DNA of 23,545 bases. Origin: a virus. The notes under the pieces were generated by a model. That model made no database searches. It was given only the letters and a program-made list of their open reading frames with translations, and had not been told where the DNA came from. Numbering within the stretch: the stretch's first letter is position 1; each line of letters opens with the position of its first letter. Positions 1 through 18,982 of the stretch are shown one piece after another. Both the position numbers and the translations under genes were made by a program. Location of the stretch: IMG/VR virus record IMGVR_UViG_3300009161_000236, positions 1 through 23,545 of that record. One strand, written 5' to 3'.

Positions 1-3000
1 AGGTCATTGAGGAAACCTTTGATGCCAATAAGGTTCGCAAACTCAATACGAAGAAATACGAAGCTGTTCCGATTGGTGATTATCTTGAATCGCTGAACAA
101 ACCACAATCCACCGAAAAGGTCGAAAAGCCTTCTGCCACTCAGGAAATCATCACTCGTCTCAATTCCGCATCTTCGCGCGAAGAAGCCCGCGAGATACTA
201 AGCGGCGTCAAAGACCTGCTTGCGCTCAAAGAAGTAGCGAAAGCGATGGGCTACCCGACGACAGGCACCAAAAAGGACGTGGTAAATCACCTCGTTGCCG
301 CAGTTGGTTCACGCGCTGATGGTAAAGCGATACGCGGTGATAACCCACGCATCTTAAATACCCCAACGATTGTTCGCACGCCTGAACAGCAAGCAGTCTT
401 TGATGAAGAACGACGCATAGAAAATGAGCGCGCAAAAGAGCTTGACGTAAATATTCCAAAAAAGAAGCCACGCACCGCCGAAGAATTTGCCCGTGATATG
501 GAAGCGATTATGGCCCCATCTCAAGGAGAAGCGCCAAGCGCGAAGGTTGCTCCGTTTACGCCAGAGTATCTAGCGCAGGTTAAGTCTGCACAAATGCAGT
601 ATATTGAGCCTGAAAACTCAGATATTCGGCAAAGATTTGAGTCTGCCGCTGGTCGAAAAATGACAGCAGATGAGATTTTTGATACCGCCGTAGCAATAGC
701 CAACGAAATTCGTGAAAAAGGCGGCAATCTACACATCCAAGACGTTCTCGATTCAGCCACCGATACTCAAATCAAGCGTAACCTAAAAGGCACCGAAGAA
801 GTCAAATCAAGCCTCCTATCCAACCTCATTGACCGCTTTAGACCCTTGCCACCAAAAGGTGACATCTTTGGCCGTCTAGCCCGTGATGCTCAACGTAAAC
901 CTCTCGCTACGCAGTCCGAACGTCAACGCGCCATCAATGAGCTTACCGAAGATGTTAAGCGTCAAATCGGTAACGATCCTGCCGAAATCCAGCGTTTCAA
1001 CGAGCTTCTAGGCTTGCCAAAAACCAATAAGTCTATCCCGCGTATAGCCACAGCCTTGCTTGAGCAAGCAGATGCGCTTGTAAGTGAGCAACCAGCCACG
1101 ATGGAAGAAGCCTTTGGACAAGACATGTCCGAACTCCAAGTGGGCGATGTTGTATCTTGGGAGGACAAAGATGGCAAGATTCGTCAAGGCGCTATTCTCT
1201 CCCGCAAAAAGGACGTTTACCAAATCGCGGATAAGACGCAGGAGACAACAGTTCGCCTACCACGCCATGAATTAACGCTGGTTAATGACGCCAACAAGGA
1301 GTCGCGCACCAAAGCGCTAGACTCCATCATCGGCACTCCAACAGGTGTCGAAATGAACGCCGTAAGCCCTATGGACGGGCAAGAAAGCCTCGCACTCGTT
1401 CACAACTCAGGCGATGTTCCCGGCGTCTTGAACGCCTTTGTCGGCACATCCAAAGAGTTCTTGGCGAATAAGCAGAACGAGAAGGACTTTCCCGAACTCT
1501 ACAAGATCATCAAGGCTGGACGTGTTGATGAGGGCAATTTCGCTTATGGCAGAGCTTTCGTGTTCACAGATGGCATCGGAGTCAACGCTAGTGACCGTGC
1601 AAACGCTACGAAGCTCGGTATTACCCCTTCAGTTGCCGCTGTACGTCGCGTGCTCATTCACGAAGGTCTTGTTCACCGTGGCATCTACGGCTTGCCAGCG
1701 AGGCTGCAAATGCAAATCCTGCAATGGGTACGGCAGAATGCTACGCCGCAAGAGCTTGATGCGCTTGCCAAGGATTATCCTCAATACGCCGATTGGGCTA
1801 CGAATCCGCAGCAAATGCTTGGCCTTGCTGAAGAGTTCCTTGCGAAAAAGGTTGAGAAGATGACCAAGTTTCCAACAAGCGGGCCACTTGCTCGCTTGGT
1901 GGAGATTTTGAAGGACGTTTGGCGCTATATTACGGGCAAAGATGGCGAGCCTACGGTGCAGAATTTGCGTGATGTCGTGAAGCTATTGAAGGCGGGCGCT
2001 AAGGCGGCGAATCAACGGCTTGTGAATGGTGGCGGGATTAAGATGAGCCAGCTTCGGGCGCAAGGCTTTGTCACGCCTGAGATGGATGCGGAGTATGCCA
2101 AAGCGGTTGCTGATGGCGACGTTGCCAAGCAGCAGAAGATGGTGGATGCGGCGGCGAAGGCGGCTGGAACACCTCAATCTGAAGACGGCTACGCAGTCGT
2201 CGGGGAGGCATCTGGCTTATATACAAAGAACTCAGGAGAACATGTTATAGCTGCGGCAGTTTTTCATCCCGCGTCCAGAACTCTATTCTTGGGGGATGAC
2301 CACGGACAAGCTCAATATCTAGCTTTCAAGAGGGAAATTGGAGTCGCAAGTGTCGAGAATGGTTTCTTCACAAGCGCGGGCAGGTTCGTTGACGCTGGCG
2401 AAGCTATACAGATAGCCAGAGACTCTAAGCAGCATGTAGCAAGAAGGGGAGATGGACATCTCGACTCCTTCGCGCTCAAAGAGTCAATGGAGTCTAATCT
2501 TGACCCCATCACCCGCGATGACAACGGCCAAGTAATCCCCCTCTCGCAACGCTTTAACGCTGCGAAGGCGGATATTCGCGAATCCCGCATCTCCTACACA
2601 AACCCGCTCGATGCCCAACTAGCTTCCGCGTCTGAAAGGATGCGGCAGATGAGGGAAAAGGTGGTTCCACAAGGGGTTGATTCCGCGCAAGTTCGCGCCG
2701 AAATCCGCAAGGCTTATGATGCCTCTATTCAAGGCAGCGGCAGCGTTCAAGTATCTTTGCAGCAAGTTTACGACATTGCTAAACAAGCTATTCCAACGCT
2801 GACAGAAAAGCAATTTGGCGAGCAAGTACAGGCGCTTTACGAGGATGGAAGCGCGTTCCTTGTGCCGACTGATAGAAGCGCAGACATGCTTGCGGCAGGC
2901 GAGAAATGGGGCGTTTATGATGTGGCTGGATTGCCTGCGAGTTATATCGGCGTGATGCCATCTCAAGAAACGAATTATGAAAACGACATTCGAGCTAATA

Positions 3001-6000
3001 CTACTAGCCTCAGACCAAGAGGCACAATGGAACCTCGCGGCGGAGCGGAAGAGTATGGCACTACTACTCCGCAATTATCGCCAAAGGACAAATCGCCAAG
3101 AGCGAATACTCTCAGAGCAGTGGTGGATGAACGAGTATGGCGAAACCTCTCGCCAGACCAGAAAAAGAATGCTCTTGACGATTTCGGAGCAAAGCGGTTG
3201 GAAGGAATTGCGGCCAACTCAAAGCTTGTTTCTTCATCATACAGAATTGCCAGAGCGCCATCAGATCATGCTTTTGCAGCACTCCTTCCAGAGACTAATG
3301 CCGAGAGGCTGGTGGTCGAAATAAACCCGTCTATTGATCCAAAGCATCCTATTTTGCAAAAGTCGGCATTGGAGGCTCACGCTTTCATGTATGATATGAT
3401 GCAGGAGGAAATGATTCATTTTGCACAGCACTACAACGCTTGGCAGCAATGGGTTAAGAGTGGCGCTAAAGGCTCCGTGGTTGCATTTGAAAACAAGCAT
3501 TTCAATGACCAAATCAATGAGTTGATGGCCCAAAGGAACGCCGCGATTCAAAACGGTGATTCCAACGCTGCTCGCAAAATTGATACAGCGCTCATTCACG
3601 CTTGGAACTTTTATGATCCTAGCCGCCAAGTTTCTACACTTGAGCAGCTTGGCCGCGCTCTTGTTGACGCCAAGGTAAGAATGCCTGAGTTCATGATGGA
3701 AGTCACTCGCCAGCTTGTGCAAATCGGCAGGCAGGACTTCACGACGGAAACGGGATGGGCAAAGTTTAGGGATATGCTCGTCAAATGGGCAAACGATGTG
3801 CTTAATTCTCTGCGCAATACACTTGCTAGCGTGAGAAGCGGTGAGTTTGGACAACTACTTAAAGACGAGATTGCCAACATTGAGCGAATTGTTAATCAGA
3901 TTGAAACTGGCGATGGCGTTCTTCCGACTCAAGAAAGCCCAATTGTTAAAGCGACACCAATTGACCAAAATGCACTCAAATCCATTATCGACAAAGCGGC
4001 CAGCACACCCATCAGTGATGATAGCATTAAGAGCTTCTATGAAGTTCTATTACGAACCCTCGGAGTTGGCGGGAAAAATAATAGAGACTTACATCCCGGC
4101 GTTCGGATGGCTCGATTCTCCCCATCTTCACCTTTACAGGTCATGCCTCATGAGAATGGTGAACTCGTCATGGGACTCGGAGAGGGGCAGGCAAGACAAA
4201 TTATACGCGATTCGGGTTCTTCGGAGGCTGGCTTCCGCTATATCGCGGATGCAATTGAAGAGGAAATAATTCATCTTGCGGATTATTTAGCGATAAGGTC
4301 AAAATGGGAGTCTCAAGGAAGCAAGGGGAACTTTATTGTCTTTGCTCAACGTGAAACACAAAGGCTCACCAAGGATTTGCAGGACGTTGCAAAAACACTT
4401 TCAGATTCCGACAAAGAAGCGTTGCGAAAAACTCTTGGGGCAACAGTGGCCTCGTATCACGACAAAAGCGAAATTGCTAACGCAAGCCTTGAGCAATTGA
4501 TACAGCTTTCTGCCAATACTTCGGCCCCCATGTTTGCTCATTCAGAGCTAATTCGCGCATTGATTCAGGCCAAACGCTCCGGCGAAATTACAGCCACGGG
4601 ATATAAACGCATTGCAAACACGCTCGTTAAATGGCTTCAGGATGCGCTTAATTGGCTAAAGCAAGCCTATGGTCAATCCCGCAGCGGTGGATTTGGTAAT
4701 GTGCTAGCACAACGTATTCAGGATACCGAACAGCAGCTTGAGATGCTTGGCGTGATGCCGACTGAGATTAAGGCGAGCGTGGCCGCTGGCGGTGAAATTC
4801 CTAAAGCTATTGCTTCCACAAAAGGATTTGCAGACGCTATTGACGCTATCAAAACAGCAAGTCCGACGCTGGTTGAGTCAGAAGCACGCGCATTGAAGGA
4901 TCATTTACCAGATGACCATATTCAACAGGGTGTTGAACCTCGCGTTGCCGTTAGCATTGCTCTCATTGATCGTCTGCTTAAATCTGGCATTCCAGCCATT
5001 GAGCTTCCGTCTATTCTGAATAGCCCTGCGTTCCTTGAGTCTCTTGGAATTGAGCAGAATGCCGACATGCAGCAATACTTGTCGATTGAGGCGTTGAATC
5101 GCATCAATCAAGCCGCCGTTGATACGGATAATATCTCAGATCGCAACAACCTCGTAAAACAAGCAGATGGCGCTGCAAAGATTTGGAATCTACTTGGTGA
5201 ATTTGGCGGGCGCTCACTTGGAACTCGCGGATGGCTGATGAAGCATCCTCGCTATGCTGCCATGTTCGTTGAGCAAGGCATTCTAAGCAATCTTGCCAAT
5301 CAGTCTGAGAATGTCACAAAGGCTAACGTCGTTGATCCTAGCGCGGTGGTTAAAGGTGTCGAAAAGGCAGGCGAAACAGCCAATGAAGCAGCTACAAATC
5401 AGGCAGACCAAGACCTTGTTGAAAGCTGGATGGAAGCCGCCGAAGAAACCCTCTCTCCAAAAGCCAAAGGATTGTTTGACCGTATTCGTGAAAAGCTGGC
5501 ACGTATCGGCTACTTGATGGGCCTGAATACCAACACAAAACAGTCTGTTGCTGGTAATCTTGCCGCTCGATTTGCACAAGAATATAAGGGAATTACCAAG
5601 GAAAAGATTGAGTCCGAACTGGCTAAATTGCGCAAAGAAGTCGAAGCTGATTTGTCATCTTTTGCCGATGAATTGCTTGGTAAAGATGCGCCACAAGAAG
5701 CCAAAACAAAGGTCAAAAAGACTGCCGAAAAAGCAGCTAAGCGCGAAAAGAAAGCAAAGCCAACAGCGGAAGATAAGGCCAAAAAGAAACAAGAGCGTGC
5801 AAACGCCGTTGCTCAACGCCTTATTTACCGCACGGAAGAAGTATTCCGCCAAGGATTCAAGAATGAGTCAAAATCGGTCAACGCTGATTCAATTCTCAAG
5901 GCATTCCGTGACCAAGTAAAAGAACCCGTTTCAGACGCAGCTTTTACCGCTCGCGTTAAGAAGCTCAATGTCACTGAAGAGGTTGCTGCCAGAATGCTTA

Positions 6001-8555
6001 AAACAGCATCCCGTGAACGTGGCGACCAAGAGCAGATCAAAAAGAATGCGCTCCTTGATAGTGTTGAGGCGCTGAAAAAGATCATGCACAAGCTGTCCGG
6101 CAAGTTAGGCATTTTCCAAGTTGACCCGACATCATGGCGCAAGCTGTTCAGCACGTCCAACGCATCACAGGCGCAACGTAAGGTTGAAATGCAAGAGGCA
6201 ATCAAGGCCGATCCTGCATTTAGTAAACTGGATGAAGATGAGCAGAAGCAACTTGCCGACTTGCTGGATGAGGCTTGGCAGGCAAAGCGTGACGAAGTTC
6301 TCAAGACTGAAATCAATCGCTTGACTCGCACTCAAAAAATGAGCGACAAGGCCAAAGATGCCATCAGTGAGGCTATTCCAGAAATCATTCAGATGGTTAA
6401 TCGTGGCACGTTTGACAATGCAGAACTTGCCAAGATCGTTTCATCCAAGTTTGGATTCCGTGAACTTACTGCGGAAGAACGCGGAAGGCTTCGTGAAATT
6501 ACTGAGAAATTGCAGCAGGATATTCCACCGTGGGAGCACAAACGCCTAGCAAATGAATTGCGTGATTTGCTTGCTGATGTGACCAAATTGAACTTTGCAG
6601 AACTTGCCGAAGCATGGTGGGTGTCGTCCGTTTTGTCAGGCCCGCGTACTGCGTTCACCATTGGCCTTGGCTTCAATTCTGGCGGATTTGAAGTTATCAA
6701 GAACTCGCTTGGCACCATCTTACTCAACCCAACGAATCCGAATGCGTGGGATGCCTCGTTCAAAGCAATTAAAGGCTGGTTGTCGTCTATGCCAAGAGAG
6801 GCACAACGTGCCTTGGCTTATCTCAAGTCTGGCGATGTTACATTGCTTGATTCCAGTATGAGCAATGATGCGGCATTGATTGACCGCGCCGTTAAAGAGC
6901 TTGGAAGCGTTGGTATTGCAGCAAAACTACTCAAGTCAAAGAATCCAGTTTACCGTAAAGCAGGTCAGTTCATGGCATTTATGCAGAAGCTATTGACGGC
7001 TTTGGATATGTTCAATGGATACACGGCGAAATATGCCGCTATGCCTTTGGCTTATTTTCAGACTCAAAGTGTCTATGATCCAAAAGAGCTTGACACTATC
7101 CGCAATCATTACTTGGCGAGACAACAGGTTCTAGCCAGTGAATTTGGCGGCGTTGAGCCATCCTCGCTTGAGGATAAGGCCCGCTTAAACGCATGGGCTA
7201 CTGATAAGATGTGGAAAGACATTCAGCGCCTTGGAACATTAGAAGAGAACGCTAATTACCTCGCTCAAGTTGCTAACATGACGCTTAATCCAACTGGCGT
7301 TGGTGGCATCTTCTACCACACAATTCTCGGCATTCAGGCAAACCAAAAGAAGAAATCTGCTGATTTTGTGCAGAAGCAGAAAGAGGAATTGCTGAATGCG
7401 GATGGTATTGAGAAGGAGATTGCCAAGTTCAATCTGGCTCTCGGCTACATGTATCAGTTTGCCGCTCACAACTTCTTAGGTGCTTTTGGGCTAAAATTTA
7501 GCCGTTTTGCCGGAGCAAAAATAAATCAGACGCTCTCATTTATTCCATTGCTAGGATTAACTCGATTGGCTGAAAAAACAGACGCTCAAAAAATGCACAT
7601 TGCCAATGTGGCTGGCGCACAAGCTCTTGGTTTCCTTCTACTTGGGCAGGCGTTTTGGATTCTTTCTAAAATTGCCGAAGAACCAGACGATGATGAGCGC
7701 GGTTGGGACATACAAGGTGGATGGCAGAATATCTCGCCAGAACGTAAGCAGCAACTTTTAGCCGCTGGCAAGCGCGAGTACACCATCTTCTACAAGGGTA
7801 AACGCTACTCGTATGCCAACTGGCCTATCAGCGGTATGCTTTCTGCGATTGGCTCAATGGCTGATTTGATTCGTTACTCGCCGGATCAATGGAATGAAAA
7901 GAGTGTGGCAAATCGCCTTGCATCTGGTGTATGGGCAGCAGCCGCTAGTGTTGGTGATTCTGCCGCTCTCTCGCAGCTTTCTGAACTACTTGGAACATCA
8001 ATGGCATCCCGTGATCCTATTGAGGCTTCAATGGGCAAGTTTAACCGCGTCTTTGGCAACTATGCTGGCGGCTTCATTCCACGCATCTTGAAGGATGTGG
8101 ATTTGATGCAGAATCCCAAGATCAACACCTACAAGACATTGTGGGAGCGTTTGGCAAAAGAAGTTCCAGTAGCGCGTAGATATGAGGGGAAAGCGTTGCT
8201 GGACATTTTCAGCAATCAAGTGGCACCGTCACGCTTGCCTTGGAGTCGCGAACTTGTTCTTCAACCGCCTGAATTAGAGTATCAGAAGTTGGGCCAGTGG
8301 AACAATAATGGTATCTGGCTAAGCCCTCCAAATGCTCAAAACCGAATGGTTGGCAAAGGTCGTAACCGCCGCCCAATGACCGAAATTGAAGCAGATCGCT
8401 ACGTTGATATTGTCGGCAAGGGGTATCGCGACATGGTTCTAAAGTATGGCGATAGGGTTCTTGCTATGCCAGTAGAACGAGCTAAAGCGTTTGTTTCGGA
8501 CAAGGCTGATGAGATTCGTGATCGTGCATCGAAAAAAGCCGTAAAAAGCACTTGA
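1..8555 (+). CDS. Giant polyvalent phage protein, 5' end outside window
   Basis: The frame is open from the left edge (first full codon at position 3), so the start lies outside the window and at least 2850 residues are present. Residues below are counted from position 3. There is a SAP-like segment at about 70-100 and an SH3-like segment (VGDVVSWEDKDGKIRQG) at about 375-428. HEGLVH at 553-558 is followed by an AEEFLA stretch, resembling the HExxGH metallopeptidase-like domain common in phage polyvalent proteins. A GRFVDAGEAIQIA segment lies near 795 and a winged-helix-like segment at about 895-985. Two related domains carry EEMIH (1135-1139) and EEIIH (1420-1424). A Lys/Glu-rich coiled-coil region covers about 1865-1945. 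The C-terminal third has hydrophobic stretches, for example near 2538-2560. Family knowledge suggests a virion-borne, co-injected effector or internal protein. Catalytic activity is not proven. Confidence is high for a gene and moderate for the family. Confidence 0.9.
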   Translation, partial: VIEETFDANKVRKLNTKKYEAVPIGDYLESLNKPQSTEKVEKPSATQEIITRLNSASSREEAREILSGVKDLLALKEVAKAMGYPTTGTKKDVVNHLVAAVGSRADGKAIRGDNPRILNTPTIVRTPEQQAVFDEERRIENERAKELDVNIPKKKPRTAEEFARDMEAIMAPSQGEAPSAKVAPFTPEYLAQVKSAQMQYIEPENSDIRQRFESAAGRKMTADEIFDTAVAIANEIREKGGNLHIQDVLDSATDTQIKRNLKGTEEVKSSLLSNLIDRFRPLPPKGDIFGRLARDAQRKPLATQSERQRAINELTEDVKRQIGNDPAEIQRFNELLGLPKTNKSIPRIATALLEQADALVSEQPATMEEAFGQDMSELQVGDVVSWEDKDGKIRQGAILSRKKDVYQIADKTQETTVRLPRHELTLVNDANKESRTKALDSIIGTPTGVEMNAVSPMDGQESLALVHNSGDVPGVLNAFVGTSKEFLANKQNEKDFPELYKIIKAGRVDEGNFAYGRAFVFTDGIGVNASDRANATKLGITPSVAAVRRVLIHEGLVHRGIYGLPARLQMQILQWVRQNATPQELDALAKDYPQYADWATNPQQMLGLAEEFLAKKVEKMTKFPTSGPLARLVEILKDVWRYITGKDGEPTVQNLRDVVKLLKAGAKAANQRLVNGGGIKMSQLRAQGFVTPEMDAEYAKAVADGDVAKQQKMVDAAAKAAGTPQSEDGYAVVGEASGLYTKNSGEHVIAAAVFHPASRTLFLGDDHGQAQYLAFKREIGVASVENGFFTSAGRFVDAGEAIQIARDSKQHVARRGDGHLDSFALKESMESNLDPITRDDNGQVIPLSQRFNAAKADIRESRISYTNPLDAQLASASERMRQMREKVVPQGVDSAQVRAEIRKAYDASIQGSGSVQVSLQQVYDIAKQAIPTLTEKQFGEQVQALYEDGSAFLVPTDRSADMLAAGEKWGVYDVAGLPASYIGVMPSQETNYENDIRANTTSLRPRGTMEPRGGAEEYGTTTPQLSPKDKSPRANTLRAVVDERVWRNLSPDQKKNALDDFGAKRLEGIAANSKLVSSSYRIARAPSDHAFAALLPETNAERLVVEINPSIDPKHPILQKSALEAHAFMYDMMQEEMIHFAQHYNAWQQWVKSGAKGSVVAFENKHFNDQINELMAQRNAAIQNGDSNAARKIDTALIHAWNFYDPSRQVSTLEQLGRALVDAKVRMPEFMMEVTRQLVQIGRQDFTTETGWAKFRDMLVKWANDVLNSLRNTLASVRSGEFGQLLKDEIANIERIVNQIETGDGVLPTQESPIVKATPIDQNALKSIIDKAASTPISDDSIKSFYEVLLRTLGVGGKNNRDLHPGVRMARFSPSSPLQVMPHENGELVMGLGEGQARQIIRDSGSSEAGFRYIADAIEEEIIHLADYLAIRSKWESQGSKGNFIVFAQRETQRLTKDLQDVAKTLSDSDKEALRKTLGATVASYHDKSEIANASLEQLIQLSANTSAPMFAHSELIRALIQAKRSGEITATGYKRIANTLVKWLQDALNWLKQAYGQSRSGGFGNVLAQRIQDTEQQLEMLGVMPTEIKASVAAGGEIPKAIASTKGFADAIDAIKTASPTLVESEARALKDHLPDDHIQQGVEPRVAVSIALIDRLLKSGIPAIELPSILNSPAFLESLGIEQNADMQQYLSIEALNRINQAAVDTDNISDRNNLVKQADGAAKIWNLLGEFGGRSLGTRGWLMKHPRYAAMFVEQGILSNLANQSENVTKANVVDPSAVVKGVEKAGETANEAATNQADQDLVESWMEAAEETLSPKAKGLFDRIREKLARIGYLMGLNTNTKQSVAGNLAARFAQEYKGITKEKIESELAKLRKEVEADLSSFADELLGKDAPQEAKTKVKKTAEKAAKREKKAKPTAEDKAKKKQERANAVAQRLIYRTEEVFRQGFKNESKSVNADSILKAFRDQVKEPVSDAAFTARVKKLNVTEEVAARMLKTASRERGDQEQIKKNALLDSVEALKKIMHKLSGKLGIFQVDPTSWRKLFSTSNASQAQRKVEMQEAIKADPAFSKLDEDEQKQLADLLDEAWQAKRDEVLKTEINRLTRTQKMSDKAKDAISEAIPEIIQMVNRGTFDNAELAKIVSSKFGFRELTAEERGRLREITEKLQQDIPPWEHKRLANELRDLLADVTKLNFAELAEAWWVSSVLSGPRTAFTIGLGFNSGGFEVIKNSLGTILLNPTNPNAWDASFKAIKGWLSSMPREAQRALAYLKSGDVTLLDSSMSNDAALIDRAVKELGSVGIAAKLLKSKNPVYRKAGQFMAFMQKLLTALDMFNGYTAKYAAMPLAYFQTQSVYDPKELDTIRNHYLARQQVLASEFGGVEPSSLEDKARLNAWATDKMWKDIQRLGTLEENANYLAQVANMTLNPTGVGGIFYHTILGIQANQKKKSADFVQKQKEELLNADGIEKEIAKFNLALGYMYQFAAHNFLGAFGLKFSRFAGAKINQTLSFIPLLGLTRLAEKTDAQKMHIANVAGAQALGFLLLGQAFWILSKIAEEPDDDERGWDIQGGWQNISPERKQQLLAAGKREYTIFYKGKRYSYANWPISGMLSAIGSMADLIRYSPDQWNEKSVANRLASGVWAAAASVGDSAALSQLSELLGTSMASRDPIEASMGKFNRVFGNYAGGFIPRILKDVDLMQNPKINTYKTLWERLAKEVPVARRYEGKALLDIFSNQVAPSRLPWSRELVLQPPELEYQKLGQWNNNGIWLSPPNAQNRMVGKGRNRRPMTEIEADRYVDIVGKGYRDMVLKYGDRVLAMPVERAKAFVSDKADEIRDRASKKAVKST

Positions 8556-8639: not shown

Positions 8640-9341
8640 ATGTCTGAAGCTAATCAAAACTACATCAGGATTCCATTAACAAAAGGCCATTATGCTTTAA
8701 TTGACATGGAGGACTATCCAGAAATTTCAAAGCATAGGTGGTGTTATTCGCATGGAAGAGCAATGCGCAATTCACTTGGGGACGAACCCGCTCAAAGAAC
8801 CCTAATGCACCGGCAAATTCTAAATGCTCCAGATGGAGTGGAAGTTGACCATATAGACGGAAACCCATTAAATAATAGCAGGGCCAACCTACGCCTTGCT
8901 ACAAATTTACAAAACGCAAGAAACAGGGGCGTTAGAAATGATTCATCCACGGGTTCAAAATCAGTTTATTATACTCCAAGAGTAAAACGAGGGAAGCCGT
9001 GGGCGGCAAGCATAAGGATTCATGGAAAACTTATCCATCTTGGAGTGTTCCACACTAAAGAAGAGGCTGAATTGGCTTACGAAACAAAGGCAAAAGAGAT
9101 ACATGGTGAGTTTTTCCGCGCCAAGGCTGCTGACAAGTTTGATTGGAGTCATATTCCAATAGCTCCACGAACGCCAAGAGCAAACCAGACCAAATCAGGG
9201 TTTCGCGGTGTTTACCCTCATCATCATAAGTGGATAGGAATGGTTCGCCATGAGCGAGAAAATATCTATCTCGGTCTTTTCCCAACCCCCGAACTTGCGT
9301 CCTTGGCGGTTGAGGCGAAGATCAAAGAATTAAGGCCATGA
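8640..9341 (+). CDS. HNH homing-type endonuclease with two AP2 domains
   Basis: This 233-residue protein has an N-terminal HNH nuclease region (MHRQI at 56-60, VDHIDGN at 69-75, then NNSRANLRLAT and QNARNR) that should bind a metal and cut DNA. Two AP2-like DNA-binding repeats follow, at about 106-160 (AASIRIHGKLIHLGVF, AYETKAKEIHGEF) and 185-232 (SGFRGVY, WIGMVRHERENIYLGLF). HNH-AP2 proteins are known as free-standing homing endonucleases in phages. The start has no Shine-Dalgarno sequence. The stop overlaps the next gene's start as ATGA (9338-9341), so the two are probably translationally coupled. It sits between the giant protein and a zinc-ribbon gene and looks like an insertion. It has one more AP2 copy than its relative at 17657-18121. 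Confidence 0.9.
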   Translation: MSEANQNYIRIPLTKGHYALIDMEDYPEISKHRWCYSHGRAMRNSLGDEPAQRTLMHRQILNAPDGVEVDHIDGNPLNNSRANLRLATNLQNARNRGVRNDSSTGSKSVYYTPRVKRGKPWAASIRIHGKLIHLGVFHTKEEAELAYETKAKEIHGEFFRAKAADKFDWSHIPIAPRTPRANQTKSGFRGVYPHHHKWIGMVRHERENIYLGLFPTPELASLAVEAKIKELRP

Positions 9342-11203: not shown

Positions 11204-12214
11204 TTATGCGATTCCAGCGTTTCGTTTTGCAACCGTAAACTTCTTTAGCTCAGGGTCAAGCATTACATTGTCAAACCACGAAGGAATCCGCTTGGCGTTG
11301 TAAGCGAGCAGTTCAGCCATTGCCTCGTCTTTGGTCAATTTCGGGTTATTCTGCCGCATGAATGTGATGACGACGCTAGGACTCATTTGCGACGGGCAAT
11401 CGGGATACTGCCACATGCCGGGAGGCGTTTCGTGCATATTCATCTCTGGCTTAGGCTTGGTTCGCTCTATAACGAGTTCTGGCGTGTCTCCAACGGCAGG
11501 CAGGGTCATGGAGCCATCGGCGCTGTATTGTGCGTTATTTGGGCTGGAATTGAACAAACAGTCGGGCAGCCATAAACAAACCTCCTGAATGCGAGGATGC
11601 TTCAATCCTTCCGCAATCGTCATACAGCTTGACTGGTTAGCGATTAGTAATGCGCTGCCAGCTATCACCTGCGCTGCAATCAAGAAATTCGCTGTTGGAT
11701 AGTATTCGACCTGTCCAAATCGCTGCTCAAATAGATCGTGCTCCGGCTTAGTTCCAAGAAATACCAATTTTTCGCCATAGTGCTCGACAATTTTGCGCCA
11801 AGGAAAGTGCGGATTTTCGTATCTGGTTGTTTTGTTGATAACCACACGTTCAGCCCATTTGGTGCTAGGTTTGGCTGTTAGCCACGGTTGCGAAACGTCT
11901 GGAAACGTGGAGATAAATCCATCTCGGATTGCCGCTTCAGCATGGTTTAGCGCAAGGCTTAAACCGTTTCCGTGGTAAGCATATTTTCGGAAGTTCTCGG
12001 AATGCCAGTCGATATGCTCGCCATTCCACGGGCGCACATCTTCAATGTATGGTTGCGCTTTTACAAGTGGTGCCACAACGTCAAAGCGACGCAGGATGCC
12101 AGCGGTTTGCCCGTTGTCGTAAAGATAGCAGATAGCTTTTTCGCCCTTGCTTTTGACGGTGGCTAATGAAAGAAAGAGGTCGCCTGCGTCTCCGCAGCCC
12201 GTGAATGATGTCAT
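11204..12214 (-). CDS. GT-B / heptosyltransferase-like glycosyltransferase
   Basis: The 336-residue product starts MTSFTGCGDAGDLFLSL, which fits the Gly-rich first loop of GT-B glycosyltransferases such as the GT9 type. The C-terminal half carries the nucleotide-sugar-binding style pattern: VFLGTKPEHDLF, then FLIAAQVIAGSALLIANQSSCMTIAEG and HPRIQEV. The ATG lies in an ATGA overlap with the stop of the HNH gene (12211-12214), preceded by CTTAAATACAA. Its tail (about 260-336) contains a PPGMWQYPDCPSQMSPSVVI stretch that I do not recognise. It is placed between the other two glycosyltransferases, which suggests they act on one glycan or modification. The donor sugar is unknown. Confidence 0.75.
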   Translation of the reverse strand: MTSFTGCGDAGDLFLSLATVKSKGEKAICYLYDNGQTAGILRRFDVVAPLVKAQPYIEDVRPWNGEHIDWHSENFRKYAYHGNGLSLALNHAEAAIRDGFISTFPDVSQPWLTAKPSTKWAERVVINKTTRYENPHFPWRKIVEHYGEKLVFLGTKPEHDLFEQRFGQVEYYPTANFLIAAQVIAGSALLIANQSSCMTIAEGLKHPRIQEVCLWLPDCLFNSSPNNAQYSADGSMTLPAVGDTPELVIERTKPKPEMNMHETPPGMWQYPDCPSQMSPSVVITFMRQNNPKLTKDEAMAELLAYNAKRIPSWFDNVMLDPELKKFTVAKRNAGIA

Positions 12215-12969
12215 TTGTATTTAAGTTCAGGATGTTTCTGAAGTGCCTTTTCTATGGTGCTGCCATTTTTCAATCTACTGTATATATTTTGTGGGGAAAT
12301 GCCTATAATTTCGGCCCATTCCGTCACACACCTTGAAATGCCGTTAAAATGCAAAATTCGCACTGCTCTTGTATTGCGAGCTTGCTCTAATGCCGTAGCC
12401 CATCGGCAGTTAGCGGGTTCATAATTACCATTCACATCAATTCTGTCTAAAGATTTTCCAAGCGGGCGCTCACCCATATCATGCAAAAAGCTCTCAAAAG
12501 AACTCATCCATTTATCGCATATGGTGATTCCACGCCCTCCGTAATGATGATAATTTTTAATGTTCTTGTTGGTGCATCGCGTAAGCATGGCATACCAACT
12601 TCTATAAGTTGGCGTTTCAAGTTTGCCGTGAGAATTTAGCCTTTGAGCGGCGTACTGTTTTTGCCTGCACCCGCAGGATGATGTATGCCAAGAAATAAGG
12701 TGATATTTGTTTACCTTTGTCTCATTGCCGCAATCACATCGGCATAAGAATAGGGGTATTTTGGGGTGTTTTCTTTCCACTTCACAAACAACAGTTAAAC
12801 GATTAAACCTCATTCCAGCAGAAACTCCAAGACGTAAATCGTCTTTATAGTTTGGATTTTTTAGGACGCCCACCTTTTCTGCCATTTTCTCGGCTTGCTT
12901 TTTTCTTGCTCTCACTGGTTGATTTTCCACCGATTTTTCCAGCCCTTGATGTATGTTGGTAGTTTCCAT
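12211..12969 (-). CDS. HNH endonuclease with N-terminal zinc knuckle
   Basis: In this 252-residue protein, residues 51-102 form a Cys-rich module (RFNRLTV, CRCDCG at 76-81, SCGC at 98-101) likely to bind zinc. Residues 124-200 show the phage HNH pattern WYAMLTRC, YGGRGI, SLDRIDVNGNYEPANCRWAT and EQARN. The C-terminal segment, 208-245 (CVTEWAEIIGISPQNIYSRL), looks like the helix-turn-helix found in homing endonucleases of the NUMOD type. It differs from the two HNH-AP2 genes in this window, so it is a separate family member. Its stop overlaps the start of the next glycosyltransferase gene as ATGA. It splits a glycosyltransferase cluster and is probably a selfish insertion. Confidence 0.88.
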   Translation of the reverse strand: METTNIHQGLEKSVENQPVRARKKQAEKMAEKVGVLKNPNYKDDLRLGVSAGMRFNRLTVVCEVERKHPKIPLFLCRCDCGNETKVNKYHLISWHTSSCGCRQKQYAAQRLNSHGKLETPTYRSWYAMLTRCTNKNIKNYHHYGGRGITICDKWMSSFESFLHDMGERPLGKSLDRIDVNGNYEPANCRWATALEQARNTRAVRILHFNGISRCVTEWAEIIGISPQNIYSRLKNGSTIEKALQKHPELKYK

Positions 12970-16296: not shown

Positions 16297-17664
16297 TTAT
16301 GCTTCTGCCATCGGCTCAAATCTAAAGAACCTGCCGTGTAGCGTTGCCTTCACGATCTTCAATCTCTCGCCGTTTCGATTCTTCTTGATGAAAAGGTTAC
16401 GGTCAAAATTCGGTTCCTCATCCTTCTTTTTCTCCCATGCCTTACCAGCGGGCTTTTCAGCCGTCTTTTGAATGATAATCAGGTTGTCGCTATCTTGCTC
16501 TATGGCTCGGCTTTCACGAACCTTGCCATCCTCGTTCAACTGGCTCGGCATGATAATATGAGCACCCGTCATCTTTGCGCATTGCTTGGCAGTCGCGGTG
16601 ATGTGAGCAACCTCACGCTCTCGATTCCCATTGCTGGTTTTGGACGTAAGGCAAAGCTGGATGTAGTCAATAGAGGCCACCAATTTCTGCCCTTGTTTGA
16701 GCTTCTTTGACCGTCTAGCAATGTCTCGACAAATCTGCTCAATGGTCTTGCCTGCCACATCTACGATGGAAATAGGCCACTTTGACAGCCTGCCAAGTTT
16801 AGCGCCGACACTTTGCTGCTCTGCTCGCGTGAGAATGCCATGCTTAAGATTGCCCGAATCAACACCTGATTGTGAGCAAAGCAGGCGTCCAGCTTCTTCC
16901 AAGGATGTCATCTCATAACTGTAAATAACCCCTACATGATCCTGCAAACAGGCCGATTCCACGAATTGACGCGCAAGGCAACTTTTGCCATCGCTGGATT
17001 CGCCAGCAATTACGGTCAAACGCCCCTCTTCCATGCCGCCAAGGTATTTATCAAAGCCAGCAAAGCCCGTTGAGATGCCGGGAATCTTGCCGGGGTTGGC
17101 GCAACGCTCCTCAATTCCATTCACAACATCGGTCAAAAGCTCTCCAATCGGACGAAACGGCAAATCAGCGCTAGAATCATCATTCACAGCCTCACAGACG
17201 AGCTTCGTCACATGCTGGAGTGCATCAGTAGCGGAAGCGCCATCGACCTCTGTAAACGCCTGTAAATGGGCTATACCAGATGCTAAAGCGCCTATCATCT
17301 GACGAAACGTGAACTTATCCCGAATAATCGTTAAGTAATACGAATAATGCGAGGTTGTCGGAACAAGCGTGTAAAGCTCGCTAATAAACGCAGCGCCACC
17401 GACAATATCCAGCTTATTCGCATTTCTGAGAGCGTGAGTAAGCGATATTTGGTCAACCGGCTTACCAGCGGCGAATAGGCCGATAATCGACGCAAGAATC
17501 ACCCTGTTTGCGTGATAATACAGCATCTCAGCGTGTGGCGCTTCATCGCAAAGACTTGGACGCTGCAATAGACATGACAAAACCGCATGCTCTGTTTCTT
17601 GATCGCATGGTAAAGCCCTGTTTAGAGAAGCTAAAATCTCTTCAGTGGAGGCTGGCTTATCCAT
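16297..17664 (-). CDS. dnaB: Replicative DNA helicase, DnaB type
   Basis: This hexameric helicase unwinds DNA at the phage fork. I start it at ATG 17664 (MDKPASTEEILASLN), giving 455 residues; the longer open frame up to 17745 reads through the HNH gene and looks unlike DnaB. The N-terminal primase-interaction domain is marked by CDQETEHAVLSCLL. The RecA-like domain has ISTGFAGFDKYLGGMEEG, Walker A GESSDGKS at 221-228, Walker B VASIDYIQL and the later MPSQLNEDGKVRES and IEQDSDNLIII motifs. The start overlaps the stop of the HNH-AP2 gene by 8 bases (ATGGATAA). A related copy of its first 19 codons lies upstream at 18127-18183, cut off by the HNH gene, so the present 5' end is probably a replacement. 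Confidence 0.95.
   Translation of the reverse strand: MDKPASTEEILASLNRALPCDQETEHAVLSCLLQRPSLCDEAPHAEMLYYHANRVILASIIGLFAAGKPVDQISLTHALRNANKLDIVGGAAFISELYTLVPTTSHYSYYLTIIRDKFTFRQMIGALASGIAHLQAFTEVDGASATDALQHVTKLVCEAVNDDSSADLPFRPIGELLTDVVNGIEERCANPGKIPGISTGFAGFDKYLGGMEEGRLTVIAGESSDGKSCLARQFVESACLQDHVGVIYSYEMTSLEEAGRLLCSQSGVDSGNLKHGILTRAEQQSVGAKLGRLSKWPISIVDVAGKTIEQICRDIARRSKKLKQGQKLVASIDYIQLCLTSKTSNGNREREVAHITATAKQCAKMTGAHIIMPSQLNEDGKVRESRAIEQDSDNLIIIQKTAEKPAGKAWEKKKDEEPNFDRNLFIKKNRNGERLKIVKATLHGRFFRFEPMAEA
17608..17664 (-). repeat. Diverged direct repeat of the dnaB start, copy 2
   Basis: This is the copy that forms the present 5' end of dnaB. It is related to 18127-18183 with about 65% base identity, no gaps and the reading frame kept. 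The 15-base identical core is at 17619-17633. Confidence 0.8.
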
Positions 17665-18121
17665 TGAACTTAAATTCCCCGTGGTATTTTGCGCTTGCAG
17701 CCAAATATGCCGCGCTGGCGTCTTTTGGATCGGCGTATAAACCAAGCGATATGCCCTTTCTATTCAGACCAATTCTAGCTACCCACTTCTGCGTACGCTT
17801 ATGCCAAAAAACACCCTTATATCCACTTGTGTTGTTAGACTGCTTGCCTCGGTTGCAGTGATTTTGAGAATTTGTGGCCAAGCGTAAATTACACTTACGA
17901 TTATCTAACTTGTTTCCATTGATGTGGTCAACCTGAAGGCCTTCGGGAAACCCCATTATCTGACGGTGCATGTAAATAGAATGCCTTATCTTGTTTTTTT
18001 GCTTGCTTTGAGTGAATGCGTAGCCTTTCGACATAAAATACCACTTATATTGAGACAAAGATTCAAAATCCTCATCATCCACAATTGCCTCTTTTCCTTT
18101 TGAGAGTGAGATTATTTTCAT
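17657..18121 (-). CDS. HNH-AP2 homing endonuclease inserted at the dnaB start
   Basis: This 154-residue protein has an HNH region (MHRQI at 51-55, QVDHINGN at 63-70, then KLDNRKCNLRLATNSQNHCNR) and one C-terminal AP2 DNA-binding domain at about 97-150 (SGYKGVFWHKRTQKWVARI ... ISLGLYADP, AYLAASAKYHGEF). It is a short relative of the protein at 8640-9341. Its ATG overlaps the TGA of the orphan dnaB leader (18118-18121) and its TAA overlaps the real dnaB start (17657-17664), so it is wedged between two copies of the same N-terminus and coupled to both. This is the arrangement expected of a homing element that brought in the dnaB 5' end of a donor phage. Its cut site is not visible directly. Confidence 0.92.
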   Translation of the reverse strand: MKIISLSKGKEAIVDDEDFESLSQYKWYFMSKGYAFTQSKQKNKIRHSIYMHRQIMGFPEGLQVDHINGNKLDNRKCNLRLATNSQNHCNRGKQSNNTSGYKGVFWHKRTQKWVARIGLNRKGISLGLYADPKDASAAYLAASAKYHGEFKFNG

Positions 18122-18183
18122 AAATACGGAAGTGGCTTGTTTAGAGAAGCTAGAAGTTCCTCGGTTGTGGAAGGTTGGGTCAT
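18118..18183 (-). pseudogene. Orphan dnaB 5' fragment (21 codons)
   Basis: The ATG at 18183 overlaps the stop of the helicase-loader gene as ATGA, as expected for an original dnaB start. It encodes MTQPSTTEELLASLNKPLPY-L and then stops at the TGA that overlaps the HNH start. Compared with the functional DnaB N-terminus (MDKPASTEEILASLNRALP), 12 of the first 19 residues are identical and most others are similar. At the DNA level 37 of 57 bases match. The copies have many synonymous differences, so this is not a fresh duplication. It may still be translated as a leader peptide that couples loader, HNH and dnaB translation. Confidence 0.8.
18127..18183 (-). repeat. Diverged direct repeat of the dnaB start, copy 1
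   Basis: This is the upstream copy of a 57-base direct repeat flanking the HNH-AP2 gene; copy 2 is at 17608-17664. The longest exact match is 15 bases (TAGCTTCTCTAAACA on the minus strand) at 18138-18152 and 17619-17633. This conserved core could be the homing target or a point of recombination. Confidence 0.8.
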
Positions 18184-18944
18184 TTAGCTTCTGGATCGTA
18201 TTTGGTAGCCCTTACGGTTTCGCCCTGCCAGTTATTCAATAGCGTCCCAAGGTCTTTGCGAAGGTATGTGCATCCAGATTCGGTGTAGTACCACTTCAAC
18301 GCGGTGTAATCCTCGCTGGTAAAATCAAAATCTGCGACAATCTCTTTCCACTTCTTTTGCCATTTGGCATCCCACTTGGTTGTTGGACGCATACCGAACC
18401 ACGAAGCCGTTTCAATTTGCTCTGGTGTAGGATTCCAAGAATTTGAACCCCTAATAGATTCTTCTGCTTCTTCCTCTCCTTCTGCATTCTCCTTCTGCAT
18501 GGCGTTACATCCGTTACCATCTTTCTTCTTGTCTCGAAAGCGCTTCACTCTCAGTCGGGTTGTCTCGCGCAACTGTTCAGCATCACGCAATGAGCGGTAA
18601 TGCTCGTAATTGAGAATCTTCCAGCCGTATCCATGATCCTCGATTCGCTCAATCCTGCGGCCTTCGTAATCTGGTGTTTTTGAACGCGGATCAGGCTTTG
18701 CTAACTCGGCAAGACCCCATTCCACCTCTTCCATTGACGCCCCGATTCGCCTAGAAATGGCAGAATCAGTCATCATAACGTTGCCAGAAGCATCGGCGCA
18801 AAGAAGCAAGTCGGTGAAAAAGTGACGCAGTTTGCGGTTATCTGCAATGGAGGAATCAAGAATTTGGGCGAATAGTTTGACAAACATGCCGCTACAATAG
18901 CGTGGCGTAACGTTACTGTCCAATGAAAAGGTGGCTTGTTCCAT
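18180..18944 (-). CDS. Putative phage replication protein / helicase loader
   Basis: I choose ATG 18944 (MEQATFSLDSN), giving 254 residues; a GTG at 18968 would add eight. The N-terminal part (about 20-115) looks like a winged-helix domain: FFTDLLLCADASGNVMMTDSAISRRIG followed by VEWGLAELAKPDP and GYGWKILNYEHYRSL. This is a pattern seen in phage replisome organiser proteins. A charged linker rich in Lys and Glu (RDKKKDG ... EGEEEAEES) follows. The C-terminal helical segment (WFGMRPTTKWDAKWQKKWKEI ... LGTLLNNWQ) may contact the helicase. Its stop overlaps the original dnaB start (ATGA at 18180-18183), so the gene order is loader then helicase, as in many phages. The role rests on architecture and position. 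Confidence 0.75.
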   Translation of the reverse strand: MEQATFSLDSNVTPRYCSGMFVKLFAQILDSSIADNRKLRHFFTDLLLCADASGNVMMTDSAISRRIGASMEEVEWGLAELAKPDPRSKTPDYEGRRIERIEDHGYGWKILNYEHYRSLRDAEQLRETTRLRVKRFRDKKKDGNGCNAMQKENAEGEEEAEESIRGSNSWNPTPEQIETASWFGMRPTTKWDAKWQKKWKEIVADFDFTSEDYTALKWYYTESGCTYLRKDLGTLLNNWQGETVRATKYDPEAK

Positions 18945-18982
18945 AAAGTTTCTCGTTTCAATCCTCACTGGCGTTTTGCTCT

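Follow-up and report, generated by a model that had tools for sequence, protein, structure and literature searches.

A free-standing HNH-AP2 endonuclease gene at a viral dnaB as a probable gene-end-replacing homing element

Why should an endonuclease gene lie between two starts of the same dnaB gene? The question is raised by a stretch of 23,545 nt of viral DNA, hereafter the window (IMG/VR record IMGVR_UViG_3300009161_000236, positions 1-23,545), in which all genes concerned are carried on the minus strand. The upstream gene, in the "loader" position (18180-18968, with a start at 18968 or 18938), has no Pfam or PHROG match, and its TGA overlaps the ATG of an orphan leader as an ATGA at 18183-18180. 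This leader of 21 codons (MTQPSTTEELLASLNKPLPYL and a stop; 18118-18183) ends in a TGA that overlaps the ATG of the HNH-AP2 gene (TATGA; 17657-18121, 154 aa), the TAA of which lies in turn inside the dnaB start (ATGGATAA). dnaB itself runs from an ATG at 17664 to a stop at 16297 and encodes 455 aa with DnaB_N and DnaB_C domains (Pfam, 4.1e-17 and 2.3e-41, respectively). The two DnaB starts agree at 12 of 19 residues and 37 of 57 bases, with seven of the 14 differing codons synonymous; beyond Met, 11 of 18 residues match, a level reached by none of 100,000 residue shuffles. Both copies contain an identical 15-base core, TAGCTTCTCTAAACA, at nt 32-46 (18138-18152 in copy 1 and 17619-17633 in copy 2, minus strand). 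The initial annotation had placed an HNH-AP2 gene between two in-frame DnaB starts, the upstream one ATGA-linked and 21 codons long, and this is confirmed to the base, as are its figures for the similarity of the copies.

The nuclease gene encodes an HNH_3 domain (aa 58-88, 17858-17950, minus strand; Pfam, E 2.6e-11) followed by an AP2 DNA-binding domain (aa 99-148, 17678-17827, minus strand; Pfam, E 6.3e-8, 33.2 bits versus a cut-off of 33.3), the order that characterizes the HNH-AP2 class, and the protein matches phrog_99 (6e-45). The HNH core aligns with that of I-HmuI (1u3e; E 0.0017), with D65-H66 opposite D74-H75, and the tail aligns with plant AP2 proteins; the likeness to I-HmuI is in the HNH core, whereas I-HmuI is intron-encoded and the DNA-binding part of the window protein is AP2. 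Two further HNH genes bring the window total to three in 23.5 kb. One (8640-9341, plus strand, HNH_3) follows a giant ORF of at least 2,850 codons that is open at the window edge and has no Pfam match (3-8555, plus strand); the other (12211-12969, minus strand, phrog_374 type) is ATGA-linked to the next gene and located between glycosyltransferase-like genes. Neither stood out in the scan of flank similarity described below.

Introns often harbor HNH genes, and the leader and a DnaB start share the same frame, which raises the reading that the leader is exon 1 and that the HNH gene resides inside a self-splicing element, either an intron or an intein. We give this next to no credence. The downstream ORF has a full N-terminus of its own, such that splicing would duplicate the start rather than restore it, and the leader ends in a stop, with the HNH gene as a separate ORF. 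No group I or II intron RNA matched Rfam at the gathering threshold in the window and seven related loci. In place of the in-frame fusion within the host ORF that defines an intein, both leader and HNH gene end in stops and the HNH frame differs from that of dnaB, and the initial annotation, which had ruled out intron and intein alike, was correct on this point.

To place the two starts in the context of other dnaB genes, we retrieved HNH-free and HNH-containing relatives by a DnaB search of viral contigs; all dnaB cases are metagenome contigs rather than isolates. One further IMG/VR contig (L002/L019) is 100% identical to the window across dnaB and the HNH gene and possibly derives from the same virus population. 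The closest HNH-free relative, L003 (93% aa identity overall), starts its dnaB with MTQPSTTEELLASLNKPLPYDDLSEQ directly at the stop of the upstream gene, with copy 1 running straight into dnaB, and the HNH-free loci L004-L011 (84%) start theirs with MTQPPTTEDLLASLNKQLPYDDDTEQ; relatives of this kind, with a copy-1-like N-terminus right after the upstream gene, are what the initial annotation had anticipated. The second start is absent from all nine close HNH-free dnaB loci and also from the more distant ones (L393-L410), and no HNH-free relative that carries both copies was found among them. In the window, nt 1-60 of the leader are 93% identical to L003, which identifies it as the former 5' end of the phage's own dnaB. 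L003 also carries a different HNH gene (RDSYTCRYCGKQ...HIDHIIP type, about 3019-3618) at its upstream "loader" gene, the ORF of which is shortened.

A second filled allele, L012 (80%), has an HNH gene at the same place as the window. Its leader, MTQPPTTEDLLASLNKGSY and a stop, is the start of its own HNH-free lineage, identical to L009/L010 over 48 nt; foreign sequence begins there, and its dnaB opens with a different, foreign sequence, MDRPASTEELLGLIANQPLPC. L012 and L004 are 99.3% identical across 800 nt upstream, and the left junction falls after codon 16 in L012 and after codon 20 in the window. These junctions bear on the view that the 21-codon leader is a conserved functional peptide or regulatory upstream ORF unrelated to the insertion, a view that draws on a leader that could in principle be translated and is coupled to the start of the HNH gene. 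A separately conserved leader should also be present where the HNH gene is absent, yet none of the HNH-free relatives has such an ORF; the leaders instead follow the DnaB N-termini of their respective HNH-free lineages and stop at different codons, and we consider such a function highly improbable. Among the L012 relatives, the dnaB genes of L004/5/7/8 and L006/9/10/11 are nearly identical, and the upstream 800 nt of L012 is ≈99% identical to the first group and ≈65% to the second, which indicates a module swap inside the loader gene.

We located the boundaries of the foreign segments with a change-point test on codon alignments, using 2000 permutations as the null. The window dnaB is 61% identical to L003 to nt 175 (2-lnL interval 174-180) and 92% identical thereafter, with a gain in lnL of 50 compared with a maximum of 10.5 in the 2000 permutations. 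The imported, or rescue, 5' end thus occupies 17490-17664 on the minus strand, ≈58 codons, and the resident remainder 16297-17489, where identity to L003 is 92% at the nucleotide and 98% at the amino acid level. The coordinates first assigned to the feature, 17608-18183, accordingly cover the insertion itself, but the imported segment runs further, to about 17490. In L012, dnaB is 58% identical to its HNH-free sisters to nt 363 and 97 to 98% thereafter (gain in lnL 148-170, permutation maximum 13); no significant break was detected by this test in the close HNH-free pairs L003/L004, L004/L006 and L004/L010. Codons 1-119 of L012 are 64% identical (aa) to another lineage (L392, the same as L013) versus 50% to its own sisters. 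That the second copy came from a diverged phage and restored dnaB, as had been proposed, is supported by these breakpoints. A match of the downstream copy to another lineage was borne out for L012; the copy in the window is foreign as well, but no close match to its donor was found in viral contigs.

The same data speak to a duplication in place, in which insertion of the HNH gene, or slippage, gave rise to a tandem repeat of the dnaB start and the copies diverged later. The shared frame of the copies and their 15-base identical run are as this would have it. A functional copy should nonetheless stay sister-like, and in the window it is copy 1 that is 93% identical to L003, with functional copy 2 at 61% for 175 nt and then abruptly back at 92%; the 119 imported codons of L012 are likewise nearer another lineage than its own sisters. 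We therefore regard in-place duplication as very unlikely. A leader that is the lineage's own start, a foreign dnaB start and then a sister-like remainder argue that the nuclease came with a donor gene end, and did so twice. The window and L012 share the position of insertion and differ in recipient, upstream gene, leader length and tract length, which makes them separate events. The HNH genes of the two are 76% identical and the imported dnaB ends only 58 to 61%, so nuclease and rescue end are not always one traveling unit.

We conclude that the window locus is very probably a gene-end-replacing homing element, i.e., a free-standing HNH-AP2 gene that travels with a diverged 5' end of its target. 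Allele comparison shows that the nuclease gene is inserted with the recipient's own gene end kept on one side of it and a donor end, which varies in length, on the other. At dnaB, the recipient keeps its own first 16 to 20 codons as an orphan leader, followed by the HNH gene and then by a chimeric dnaB with a donor 5' end and the recipient remainder; this chimera is full length, and the host gene is thereby restored without splicing.

To determine whether this geometry recurs, we scored the translated upstream flank against the downstream flank for 235 unique HNH genes retrieved with related queries, to which L109 was added for a total of 236, and for 16 named isolates. A gapped cross-locus null proved to be contaminated by homologous contigs, and we therefore used an ungapped cross-locus null (mean 27, maximum 42, 600 pairs) together with a same-locus control (215 loci; maximum 52, none at 55 or above). 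The same geometry is found in about ten unrelated target genes; because the survey covers one nuclease family through pattern-limited searches, the ratio of about ten to 236 does not estimate how common the arrangement is among phage HNH genes in general. Among loci with a score of at least 56 and sensible geometry, L197 ranks first (score 84), with MTITVPYRGIIEIVGGHD before the HNH gene and MTINVPYRGIIEIVGSHDTGKT after it in a P-loop-type gene cut just before a Walker-A-like motif; no relatives of this gene were found. It is followed by L274 (74), cut just before NCGPC; L086 (71), a glycosyltransferase-like gene with an HNH-free relative, L178; the window dnaB and L286 (65 each); the portal gene of L081/L082 (64); L305 (57); and L334 (56), where the 3' end is concerned in mirror image. 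L341 (57) was discarded as low-complexity and out of frame, and L299 likewise on inspection.

A further and independent portal case is L109, in which the leader resembles L106/L107 and the start is foreign. In both portal comparisons, L082/L098 and L109/L107, identity is weaker near the start, with relatives too distant for a clean breakpoint. In another contig, L113, the portal gene seems to begin in another frame than the one in which it continues (MQKIQKLEVNTAASALLKLTDEEL... / LAMPWQ..., about 2940-3010), through either a sequencing error or a genuine break. The window, L082, L109, L286 and the Methanosarcina virus MetMV discussed below have a leader whose stop overlaps the start codon of the HNH gene. 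In L197, L274 and L305, a considerable gap with terminator-like inverted repeats separates the leader from the HNH gene, and HNH expression must differ there.

Two of the 16 named phage loci show an end duplication. In MetMV, a 44-aa ORF that overlaps the start of the HNH gene is similar to the small protein encoded downstream of that gene (score 82). Salmonella phage ST46 (and seszw) has the mirror-image arrangement, with the 3' end of the Rz spanin replaced. Compared with the HNH-free phage KE12, ST46 is 99.6% identical upstream and through nt 274 of the spanin and 49% identical in the rest of the spanin, which is followed by the HNH gene; downstream of that gene, identity to KE12 is 98.5% over 867 nt, beginning with the last 66 nt of the KE12 spanin. 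The orphan, ...AREAGLACEAQYNSLRNKKAP and a stop, is the exact end of HNH-free spanins, and the last codons and stop of the ST46 HNH gene (L442, 851-1351) are read from recipient spanin DNA in another frame. No clear end duplication was seen in the other 14, which include the HNH-AP2 gene between dnaB and primase of Bacillus phages; an HNH-AP2 gene is found repeatedly at that position without end duplication (L428, L429, L434 and L435; Bacillus phages Stahl, 268TH002 and Staley, and Geobacillus virus E3). Presence/absence polymorphism at one site between near-identical alleles, the mark of a free-standing homing endonuclease, is seen for L012 versus L004/L005/L007, with identity of 99.3% upstream and 96 to 97% downstream of nt 363, and for ST46 versus KE12.

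The recurrence of this geometry is also what weighs on the remaining alternative, ordinary homologous recombination, in which a dnaB allele of another phage, with an HNH gene already upstream of it, took the place of the 5' part of dnaB, the leader simply marks where recombination fell and the nuclease is passive. The data report recombination, not cutting; phage genes are mosaic; and module swaps are also found in the loader genes adjoining dnaB. Against this, in both dnaB events, as in every coupled case, the left boundary directly precedes the HNH gene, and HNH-AP2 genes are flanked in the same way in about ten unrelated targets, at 5' and 3' ends. Passive recombination does not predict that the recipient's orphan end always abuts the nuclease gene, and we judge this explanation unlikely.

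For the homing element that we favor, we propose the following scheme. The nuclease would cut or nick an HNH-free dnaB near codons 16 to 21, at the boundary of the retained fragment, and the break would be repaired from the donor by gene conversion, with homology upstream (the donor's own leader, an old dnaB start) and downstream in dnaB. The imported end would be too diverged to be cut and would in this way provide both rescue and immunity; it differs from the resident end at about 40% of bases, a divergence compatible with nuclease resistance. Translation of the nuclease would be coupled to the dnaB start that it has captured, given overlapping stop and start codons and no clear ribosome-binding site for the nuclease gene itself, and the orphan leader may thus serve as a translation starter for the HNH gene. 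A role for the leader as homology arm is carried over from the WHO model (see below); left-end joining by microhomology or illegitimate recombination would fit the sequences equally well. The 15-base core, suggested by the initial annotation as a possible cleavage site, finds no support in that role: HNH-free L003 differs from it at three of 15 bases, L012 has no such shared core, and both left junctions are 3' of it.

In a broader reading, to which we lean with some reserve, HNH-AP2 genes and their imported ends constitute widespread home-and-rescue gene drives of prokaryotic viruses, each carrying a cleavage-resistant terminus of an essential gene and employing the displaced one both as a homology arm and to initiate translation, at the 5' or 3' end of many genes, with steady reshuffling of the ends of core phage genes. 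Gene-end-replacing elements as such would account for short orphan ORFs beside the HNH genes of phages and for sudden mosaic breakpoints within core genes. They represent a third way, next to splicing and gene splitting, in which insertion into an essential gene can turn out, and a natural parallel to homing drives of the rescue type. With ST46 and KE12, two cultured Salmonella phages, the mechanism can be tested directly.

Finally, we compared the window element with known systems. HNH-AP2 proteins are known as phage homing endonucleases, and nuclease genes are located at boundaries of genetic exchange (PMC10448857). The free-standing endonucleases of T4 (seg/mob, PMC2988022) and ICP1 (including an HNH-AP2 family, PMC10448857) resemble the window element in that HNH or HNH-AP2 genes lie near essential genes with co-conversion of flanks, but those reviewed either lie between genes or divide a gene into two parts that both function (mobA in gene 60, mobE in nrdA); the passages of these papers that were consulted contain no description of an orphan end with an imported replacement end. 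Nor did the searchable literature, which stops short of subscription papers, yield a phage nuclease that leaves an orphan gene end and imports a replacement. Fungal mitochondrial mORFs (Allomyces atp6; Glomus atp6, atp9, cox2 and nad3, PMC3630166; Tremella, PMC7315562) also combine an endonuclease ORF with a foreign gene end to give a hybrid host gene, and the displaced native end stays most similar to close relatives (PMC3630166, PMC7315562); they differ in being mitochondrial, in encoding LAGLIDADG or GIY-YIG enzymes and in affecting mainly the carboxy terminus, and transcripts were tested in the fungi, whereas the viral case is known from sequence.

The WHO elements of Torulaspora and Lachancea (Coughlan et al. 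2020, PMC7282813) share with the window a free-standing nuclease at one end of an essential gene, a diverged target end carried along (resistant in WHO and predicted to be so in the window), a chimeric gene with an orphan of the recipient's own end, and discordant identity across the junction. In yeast, WHO cuts FBA1 in an allele-specific manner, homing replaces the 3' end of FBA1, and an orphan 3' fragment stays as homology arm; this model, experimentally supported in yeast, predicts an outcome of the window type (PMC7282813). As in WHO, the viral targets are chimeras of a donor end and a recipient remainder (breakpoints at nt 175, nt 363 and spanin nt 274), and the orphans derive from the recipient's own old gene end (48 nt identical in L012, 93% in the window, the last 66 nt of the spanin in ST46). 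WHO elements act on yeast nuclear genes, mostly at one target (FBA1) and at the 3' end, through a LAGLIDADG intein-like protein with zinc fingers, whereas the viral elements are in phages, encode HNH-AP2 proteins, have many targets, mostly at 5' ends, with operon-style overlapping stop and start codons, and their cutting is predicted. WHO proper is defined by a LAGLIDADG intein-like nuclease with a zinc finger, an HO homologue; the window protein is HNH-AP2, and the element works like WHO but is not a WHO family member. A form of selfish mobility so far described in yeast (WHO, the ancestor type of HO) and in fungal mitochondria is thus indicated also in bacterial and archaeal viruses. Its nearest known counterparts are yeast WHO, at the FBA1 3' end, and the fungal mitochondrial mORFs, and what is new, within the searchable literature, is the occurrence in viruses, the unrelated nuclease and the use of either gene end.
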